DNA from: Candidatus Eisenbacteria bacterium
GTDB lineage: Bacteria > Eisenbacteria > RBG-16-71-46 > SZUA-252
Assembly: GCA_005893305.1 (NCBI GenBank)
Contig: VBOZ01000029.1
Location: 1-52,127, forward strand
DNA: 52,127 bases
Direction: 5' to 3'
How positions within the stretch are numbered: position 1 is the stretch's first letter; every line of letters begins with the position of its first letter. The notes below the pieces were generated by a model. That model was given only the letters and a program-made list of their open reading frames with translations, ran no database searches and was not told where the DNA came from. Positions 48,510-50,088 of this stretch are shown here, piece by piece. The translations under genes were made by a program, and so were the position numbers.

Positions 48510-48549
48510 CGAAAAACGCGAAAGGGGCGGTACCGTGAGGTACCGCCCC
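48510..48549 (-). terminator. Rho-independent terminator of the cold-shock gene
   Basis: A perfect 11-base stem (GGGGCGGTACC at 48524-48534 with GGTACCGCCCC at 48539-48549, GTGA loop) is followed on the minus strand by TTTCGCGTTTTT. The stem lies just after the lipoprotein stop on the opposite strand, so it may stop transcription from both sides. Confidence 0.75.
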
Positions 48550-48580: not shown

Positions 48581-48781
48581 TTACGCCTTGCGGACGTTTG
48601 CGGCCTGCAGTCCCTTCGGTCCCTTAACGATGTCGAACTCCAGACGCTCGCCCTCCGCCAGCGTCTTGAAGCCCTCGCCGGAGATTGCCGAGTAATGAAC
48701 GAACACGTCTTCGCCACCCTCTTGCTGGATGAATCCGAAACCCTTCGACTCGTTAAACCACTTCACGTTTCCGACAGCCAC
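48581..48781 (-). CDS. Cold-shock protein (CspA family)
   Basis: A 66-residue single-stranded nucleic-acid-binding protein. Start GTG 48781 with AAGGAG seven bases upstream; the open frame continues to 48925, but that extension would disrupt the fold. The first strand is [16 protein letters not shown] with RNP1 (KGFGFI, residues 13-18), and RNP2 is VFVHY (26-30); the last strand is ANVRKA. Length and residues match CspA-type chaperones that melt mRNA structure. Its 5' leader is strongly folded, as is usual for this family, where structure controls expression. Confidence 0.96.
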
Positions 48782-48914
48782 TATGACTCTCCTTACGTAC
48801 GGGGCAATCAGCCCCAACTTGCCGCCCTTTCCGGACGGCTGACCCAGCCACTTTGGCGGGGCCTCCGGACGATCTGTCCGGATACAAAAAACCCGCAGGT
48901 AGCATCTCCTGCGG
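48782..48914 (-). promoter_or_regulatory. Structured leader of the cold-shock gene with terminator-like hairpin
   Basis: Reading in the direction of the gene: a 7-base stem (48914-48908 with 48899-48893) followed at once by six U; a second perfect 7-base stem (TCCGGAC/GTCCGGA, 48882-48864); a third (GGGGC/GCCCC, 48815-48801), then the AAGGAG ribosome-binding site. The first element looks like an intrinsic terminator placed upstream of the gene. Because no minus-strand gene precedes it, it may be an attenuator, or the end of a small RNA. Confidence 0.6.
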
Positions 48915-49090
48915 TGTCGTTCCATGCATTGGTGCTGCGTACGACCGTCAGGTACCTACTTCCTATGTTGTTAGATGAAAGAATCGGCCAAGAGGTCCGG
49001 TTTGTAAAGGCCTAATTTCCAAGTCCCCTGCCGGGGCAGGGATACCCCGCCCCGAGATTTCGCTAGGCATTCGACGCCGCTCCGCCGATA

Positions 49091-49116: not shown

Positions 49117-49812
49117 TTGTCCACGGACTCGCTCCAGCGTTCTCTGCTGGCGATCCCCACCCCGCCTTCTCGCCCATGGAAAATCAATTTGATACTAGTC
49201 GCGGTCCTGGTTGGCTTCTCGGTCGCCGTGGTCCAGTCCAGCTTCGTCGAGTGGGCGTTCCACCGCTTCTGGCTGCACCGTCCTTGGCTCCCCGAGAACT
49301 GCTTCACCCAACACACGCTGATCCATCACCAGCTTTGTAAATTCGACGACACGTTCCACGTCACGGATGAGGAGCAGCATGAGGCGCTCACGTTCGCATG
49401 GTGGGGCGGCCCGATCCTCATCGCGATCAGCGCGACACCGTGGGCGTTGGCATCGTGGGCGCTCTACGCCTCGGGAGTTTCGCTCCCGTACGTCGCGTTT
49501 GTGATCGCCATCATCGCGGGCGTGTCGGTATACTACGTGGGCTACGAAAGCCTCCACTATTTCATGCACAAGCCGACGATCGCTTGGATCGAGCGCTCGC
49601 GCCTGTTTCAATTCATCAAGCAGCATCACCGCATTCACCACGTGCGGATGAATCGCAATCTCAACGTGCTGCTGCCGCTCGCGGATCTGGTCCTCGGTAC
49701 GTTCGTGACCAAGATGCCGCCCCACGCACCGACCTCCACGGGTGCACGTCGAGTGGCGCGCAAGCACAGCCGGTTCGGTCGGAAGACGTCGGACAGCGAT
49801 CTCGCGGGTTAG
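49117..49812 (+). CDS. Fatty acid hydroxylase/sterol-desaturase-like membrane protein
   Basis: A 231-residue diiron membrane protein. His clusters are EWAFHRFWLH (~45), HTLIHHQL (~69), HYFMHK (~145) and HHRIHHVRMN (~168), arranged as in the fatty acid hydroxylase superfamily where the histidines bind two irons. Four hydrophobic segments are present. The start at TTG 49117 has no recognisable ribosome-binding site, and no in-frame ATG precedes the first histidine motif, so the N-terminus is uncertain by up to ~25 residues. Likely modifies a membrane lipid or carotenoid; the substrate cannot be told. Confidence 0.85.
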   Translation: MSTDSLQRSLLAIPTPPSRPWKINLILVAVLVGFSVAVVQSSFVEWAFHRFWLHRPWLPENCFTQHTLIHHQLCKFDDTFHVTDEEQHEALTFAWWGGPILIAISATPWALASWALYASGVSLPYVAFVIAIIAGVSVYYVGYESLHYFMHKPTIAWIERSRLFQFIKQHHRIHHVRMNRNLNVLLPLADLVLGTFVTKMPPHAPTSTGARRVARKHSRFGRKTSDSDLAG

Positions 49813-49866
49813 ACTTCGGGTGAGCGGTTGTCCCTGGCGGGCAACCGCATGCGAAAGGAATACGGC

Positions 49867-50088
49867 GTGGCGGGAAGCAGAAGACCTTCGTTCCTGAAAC
49901 GACAGAAGGAGCAGAAGCGCCTCGCCCGGGCCACCGAGAAGCGGGAGACGCGTCTCGCGCGGAAACGCGCGCAGGCGGAGCAACCCGAACCCACGGATCA
50001 GGTGGCTCCCGCGGAGCCGGTGGATTCCGCGCAGGGAGCCGACTCCGAAGCGACGAAACCGATCGACGACTCGCCCGAGATCAACTAA
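49867..50088 (+). CDS. Small basic protein, function unknown
   Basis: Start chosen at GTG 49867 after AAAGGAA six bases upstream; an in-frame upstream ATG at 49849 is an alternative. The first ~38 residues are strongly basic and predicted helical (SFLKRQKEQKRLARATEKRE), and the last 35 are acidic and proline-rich. The division into a basic helix and an acidic tail suggests binding to nucleic acid or a ribosome-associated role, but there is no recognised family. It lies 54 bases after the hydroxylase-like gene on the same strand. Confidence 0.6.
   Translation: MAGSRRPSFLKRQKEQKRLARATEKRETRLARKRAQAEQPEPTDQVAPAEPVDSAQGADSEATKPIDDSPEIN

Follow-up and report, generated by a model that had tools for sequence, protein, structure and literature searches.

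Why would a cold-shock (csp) gene carry a terminator-like hairpin between its promoter and its start codon? Leaders of csp genes are known chiefly for roles in stability and translation, and a terminator in this position raises the question of whether transcription itself is controlled before the gene is reached. The window examined here, a 52,127-nucleotide stretch of DNA from a Candidatus Eisenbacteria bacterium (part of contig C29 of a 2.7-Mb draft genome), contains such a leader on its minus strand. Comparison with relatives indicates that this leader probably acts as a transcription attenuator by means of an intrinsic terminator, and we infer that termination occurs and is regulated.

The gene behind the leader encodes a 66-aa protein with a cold-shock domain (PF00313 CSD, 97.6 bits versus a cutoff of 27) whose nearest named relatives come from Candidatus Eisenbacteria assemblies. 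A longer csp frame of 114 aa, starting at 48925, was rejected because conservation starts at the GTG codon with its Shine-Dalgarno sequence. The neighboring upstream gene (49117 to 49812) encodes a fatty-acid-hydroxylase-like protein (PF04116, 30.8 bits versus a cutoff of 31) and is divergent, on the plus strand; a minus-strand ORF overlapping it (49195 to 49983) was taken as a shadow. Because this neighbor is on the plus strand, there is no minus-strand upstream gene that the terminator could serve, as the sequence-only reading had held. A search of the region for tRNAs and known RNA families (Rfam) returned nothing at the gathering threshold; the cspA thermoregulator (RF01766), whose model spans the coding region too, scored 37.2 bits versus a gathering score of 78, and weak opposite-strand matches to Pseudomon-groES and GNAS-AS1_2 were taken as chance. 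From 5' to 3', the layout is promoter, 5' hairpin, terminator hairpin with U6, four stems, Shine-Dalgarno sequence, and csp, with the following coordinates.

48980 to 49008, minus strand: predicted promoter, -35 TTTACA (49008-49003), 17-bp spacer, -10 GATTCT (48985-48980); boxes conserved in the family.
48908 to 48952, minus strand: 5' hairpin, CCUGACGGUCGU (48952-48941) with ACGACACCGCAGG (48920-48908), predicted from nascent-RNA folding and folds of 16 family leaders.
48893 to 48914, minus strand: P1, intrinsic-terminator hairpin CCGCAGG/CCUGCGG, 7 bp with an 8-nt loop, arms 48914-48908/48899-48893.
48886 to 48891, minus strand: U-tract, six U following one G after P1; from the sequence, with T content conserved.
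48864 to 48882, minus strand: P2, UCCGGAC/GUCCGGA, arms 48882-48876/48870-48864; both-side changes in 5 of 8 pairs among 15 leaders.
48841 to 48863, minus strand: P3, GGCCCCGCC/GGCUGGGUC; covariation in both alignments (36 class leaders and 15 f1 leaders, defined below).
48821 to 48839, minus strand: P4, GCCGUCC/GGGCGGC; covariation in f1, with an f8 counterpart stem ACGC/GCGU.
48801 to 48815, minus strand: P5, GGGGC/GCCCC, arms 48815-48811/48805-48801, immediately 5' of the Shine-Dalgarno sequence; in both covariation analyses.
48789 to 48794, minus strand: Shine-Dalgarno sequence AAGGAG, from the sequence and conserved in alignments.
48581 to 48781, minus strand: csp gene, GTG start, 66 aa.
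48524 to 48549, minus strand: hairpin GGGGCGGTACC/GGTACCGCCCC, 3' of the csp stop codon; from the sequence, the probable 3' end of the csp transcript.

The sequence-only reading had described a 7-base GC-rich stem plus six U, a perfect TCCGGAC/GTCCGGA stem after it (48882 to 48864), and a GGGGC/GCCCC stem (48815 to 48801) ending before the ribosome-binding site (AAGGAG, 48794 to 48789), and all three were found on the minus strand where it had placed them. Its further stems are present, but they number four rather than three, since stems at 48863 to 48841 and 48839 to 48821 belong to the leader as well. Likewise, its interval of 48782 to 48914 placed these elements correctly but stopped short of the promoter and of the leader's 5' portion (about 48973 to 48915).

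How far upstream the transcript begins determines whether P1 can act on csp at all. Promoter boxes resembling TTTACA/GATACT, separated by exactly 17 bp, were present in all 15 leaders of the window's family (f1), about 190 to 210 nt upstream of the start codon. On this basis, csp transcription is expected to start near 48973, giving a leader of ~190 nt and placing the terminator hairpin inside the csp transcript; a csp start downstream of 48893, which the earlier reading had named as counting against it, is at odds with a conserved predicted promoter upstream of the hairpin. The leader region folded at -93.7 kcal/mol, compared to -75.8 +/- 4.1 for shuffled sequences (z = -4.36; 0 of 200 shuffles as good). 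Inspection of the aligned leaders revealed no conserved small ORF before the terminator that could encode a leader peptide: relatives do not share the window's ATGs at 48929 and 48925, and L003, for example, lacks any ATG from the start site to the terminator.

P1 has the form of an intrinsic terminator, a GC-rich stem with a short loop and an immediate U-tract, and it lies between the promoter (itself predicted) and the coding region. One terminator-like match was found in the 3-kb region where 2.3 were expected, which is unremarkable, and the significance of P1 comes instead from its conservation in relatives. In addition to f1, these include f8, a further family in the window's class (Eisenbacteria-like); both labels come from the genome search. 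A simple search for a hairpin followed by a T-run succeeded in 15 of 15 f1 leaders (1.8 expected in shuffles) and 16 of 23 other class leaders (4.2 expected), and the terminator form was located 104 to 134 nt before the start codon throughout the class. When the stems were placed according to the alignments, the nine nucleotides following P1 contained a mean of 6.6 T in f1 and 6.25 in f8 (expected, 1.8 to 2.0), compared to 0.3 to 2.5 after the remaining stems; the U-tract thus follows the first stem only. At least 5 T of 9 followed P1 in 48 of 51 leaders, and the U-tract is lost in a few (L129, L132, and L141). When the same criterion was applied to both sides of the same genes, the terminator form appeared upstream of csp in 41 of 51 cases and downstream in 12 of 49. 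The proposal of a premature intrinsic terminator inside the csp transcript is therefore borne out by the conserved hairpin and U-tract and by the conserved promoter upstream of them.

Expressing conservation as covariation extended this picture to the other stems. In the alignment of 36 class leaders (A3; P1, P3, P4, and P5), 92.9% of cells were paired and 52 were double-change cells, compared to 87.4% and 16.8 in shuffles, while in the 15 f1 leaders (A1) the values were 93.1% versus 86.8% and 27 versus 9.2. Shuffle controls leave relatedness in, and arms were therefore also exchanged among sequences. Across the class, native P1 arms paired at -17.1 kcal/mol compared to -13.2 kcal/mol for swapped arms (P = 5e-5); the arms are nearly invariant within f1, so this evidence comes from f8 and from comparison of both families. 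Covariation analysis in related genomes had been named beforehand as one check on the idea, and stems not conserved in relatives as the result that would speak against it; the hairpin, the U-tract, and the later stems proved to be conserved, and the stems covary in relatives.

Homology searches led from one family to the other. A covariance model (R1) of f8-type leaders, excluding the window's own leader, found that leader with 49 bits (E = 2e-10, model E-values being rough), and a model built on f1 (R2) found f8-type leaders. Nearly all confident R1 and R2 matches precede csp genes. That these leaders form one RNA family, with a conserved promoter, a terminator hairpin, a U-tract, and covarying stems, is well established at the level of sequence. 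Among the non-csp matches, the leader precedes a homolog of the hydroxylase-like gene at 49117 to 49812 in two genomes.

L194 860-1034 (G039:C119:16260-16433): leader before a PF04116 hydroxylase-like gene.
L196 (G042:C200:4162-4311): leader before a PF04116 hydroxylase-like gene.

Its presence before a second kind of gene suggests that the leader behaves as a regulatory module. Several individual leaders were also of note. The window's genome has a second csp about 50 kb away on the same contig (L118, G000:C29:99346-99728; included in R1) with an f8-type leader, so that both leader types occur within one genome, and a third, strong leader of the window's family (L193, G000:C7:23843-24044) in front of a csp copy with a disrupted frame. 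At another locus (L195, G036:C156:47016-47178), the 5' element and terminator occur without csp, and the downstream strand is antisense to a radC-like ORF; it may be a remnant or else a small RNA in its own right. Leaders of a second type, with a 5' GUCGGA..., a stem GCAGCUGCGGA/UCGACCGCGGCUG, and a U-run, also occur at csp genes in f8 (L013, L016, L020, L021, L023, L128, L130, and L140); they fit the model poorly and were left out of the alignments.

A rival reading is that the leader works post-transcriptionally, as in E. coli cspA, with the hairpin, U-run, and stems stabilizing the mRNA, protecting its 5' end, binding Csp, or serving translation and with termination being marginal. In favor of such a role, the stems beyond the terminator covary, and in f8 the 5' end (GUCUUCGGUUG) base-pairs with sequence located past the terminator (native arms, -14.2 versus -13.4 for swapped arms; P about 0.01, uncorrected, with related sequences), a long-range helix that only a read-through transcript could contain. 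In E. coli, csp leaders that are long and structured do act in this way (discussed in PMC6239172), and the Agrobacterium cspA leader, a 227-nt 5' UTR, was seen only within full-length mRNA (PMC3738593). However, a post-transcriptional role leaves unexplained why a U-tract in terminator register follows the first stem only, and the predicted openness of the Shine-Dalgarno sequence was like that of shuffles and dropped slightly when the temperature was set to 10°C instead of 37°C. We consider this explanation unlikely. Still less probable is that the 5' part serves chiefly as a small RNA acting elsewhere and ending at the terminator, with csp expressed by read-through: the G036 locus does combine the 5' element with the terminator and lack a csp gene, but the remaining confident matches precede csp or a hydroxylase-like gene and keep the downstream stems.

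There is very little chance that the hairpin is a neighboring gene's terminator or a random match with no role in csp, since, despite a frequency of one per 3 kb being within chance and a co-oriented upstream ORF at some csp genes (in a crude survey), its position downstream of the promoter is constant, its arms covary, and the upstream gene in the window is divergent. An RNA thermometer hiding the Shine-Dalgarno sequence, with no attenuation, is just as improbable, although P5 adjoins that sequence and RNAalifold proposed a CUUC/GGAG pairing between it and the 5' end in f8, because predicted openness was 0.53 versus 0.55 in shuffled leaders for f1 and 0.48 versus 0.46 for f8, with nearly equal values at 10 and 37°C. 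The CUUC/GGAG pairing was dropped for the long-range helix, as its pairs hardly vary and CUUCG fits a downstream CGAAG better.

Under the favored reading, attenuation, transcription would begin about 190 nt before the start codon, and the nascent RNA would fold the 5' hairpin first and then the GC-rich hairpin with its U-tract. Part of the polymerases would stop at the U-tract and release a short RNA of about 85 to 90 nt, while those reading through would make P2 to P5, which end just 5' of the Shine-Dalgarno sequence, and express Csp. In f1, the 5' hairpin could hold the 5' arm of the terminator, and the regulator would be something that shifts the balance between the two structures or melts the hairpin, with cold, transcription speed, or Csp protein itself as the proposed signal.

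Folding predictions suggest that the 5' hairpin of the window's family could be an antiterminator. Its inner part (UCGU/ACGA) is hairpin Pa, and its outer part captures the 5' arm of P1 through a 5' element, CCUGACGGU in f1, that is a near copy of the terminator 3' arm and complementary to the 5' arm with a one-base bulge. This 8-bp complementarity is kept in 14 of 15 f1 leaders; f8 showed no consistent counterpart. In the nascent RNA of the window at 37°C, the 5' hairpin is predicted to form first, with a probability of 0.81 once the arm is made, and to persist at about 0.64 versus 0.20 for the terminator when polymerase is at the U-tract, while in the full leader the terminator is favored (0.92). 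Covariation of the inner helix was weak (P = 0.06 in f1 and 0.025 for the corresponding f8 hairpin, uncorrected, with related sequences). The outer helix was conserved without covariation (native versus swapped arms, P = 0.97 in f1, 0.57 in f8, and 0.36 together), and single-sequence shuffle tests of the same pairing were not significant (P = 0.05 to 0.34). Because this pairing does not covary, the switch is put forward here as a possibility.

The nature of the signal is less certain. Cold by itself is expected to stabilize a hairpin. In line with this, the fold model, applied to the window only, gave a terminator probability in nascent RNA of 0.61 at 10°C versus 0.20 at 37°C, so that relief by cold would need a factor or kinetics; this predicted rise counts against simple cold relief. 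Csp proteins are candidate regulators because they reduce termination in E. coli and influence it in B. subtilis. In E. coli, CspA, CspC, CspE, and CspD make some terminators less efficient (PMC9765468, citing Bae et al. 2000), while in B. subtilis CspB and CspD mostly favor termination (PMC8307031). Relief of termination by cold or by Csp, which the earlier reading pictured as melting the hairpin, is a tentative proposal. Finding the module upstream of a gene for lipid modification is compatible with a role in the cold. A wider scheme, in which the 5' hairpin and terminator form a cold- or Csp-responsive switch through which Csp controls itself, the module also places a membrane-lipid enzyme in the cold regulon, and similar csp attenuators occur across phyla, appears doubtful as a whole.

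Attenuators built on intrinsic terminators include trp-type leaders, riboswitches, and protein-controlled attenuators such as pyr. The csp leader resembles them in placing a premature terminator between promoter and gene and, in f1, in having a competing upstream hairpin, but it has no recognized conserved leader peptide or known ligand domain, and the product of the gene behind it is an RNA chaperone with a possible influence of its own on termination. This kind of control is already known; its presence in csp leaders would be new. Cold-shock and csp genes go unmentioned in a survey that sorts premature terminators by gene family (PMC2965389), and our literature search, whose coverage excluded most subscription journals, found no precedent for attenuation of csp by an intrinsic terminator in its leader. 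The leader of E. coli cspA is likewise long and structured with a hairpin near its 5' end, whereas the window's leader has a hairpin with a conserved U-tract and stems of its own. Leaders of B. subtilis cspB and cspC, also csp 5' UTRs, contain cold shock boxes and respond to 5' UTR point mutations with altered expression, but attenuation is not reported for them in the covered part of PMC8307031. Csp alters intrinsic termination in the E. coli metY-rpsO operon and at further terminators sensitive to Csp (Bae et al. 2000; PMC9765468); those terminators serve other genes, whereas the one described here lies within the csp transcript itself, and its Csp sensitivity is hypothetical. With published Csp effects on intrinsic termination being opposite in E. 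coli and B. subtilis, a conserved terminator in csp transcripts offers a simple, direct substrate for testing the action of Csp on its own gene and the effect of cold. If the proposal is true, Csp, an RNA chaperone with known effects on terminators, would regulate the transcription of its own gene.

Terminators in csp leaders may be common and overlooked, as suggested by a sense-strand excess in other lineages. Among 107 other csp upstream regions sampled from several phyla, 25 had a terminator-like hairpin on the sense strand, whereas the reverse strand gave 3 and shuffled sequences 4.5; these 25 are unsorted, and some may be terminators of upstream genes. In L035, L060, L248, and L258, from csp genes of other phyla, the terminator-like hairpin follows promoter-like boxes by inspection, and in L254, L255, and others, also from other phyla, it lies between a promoter-like sequence and the csp start codon.
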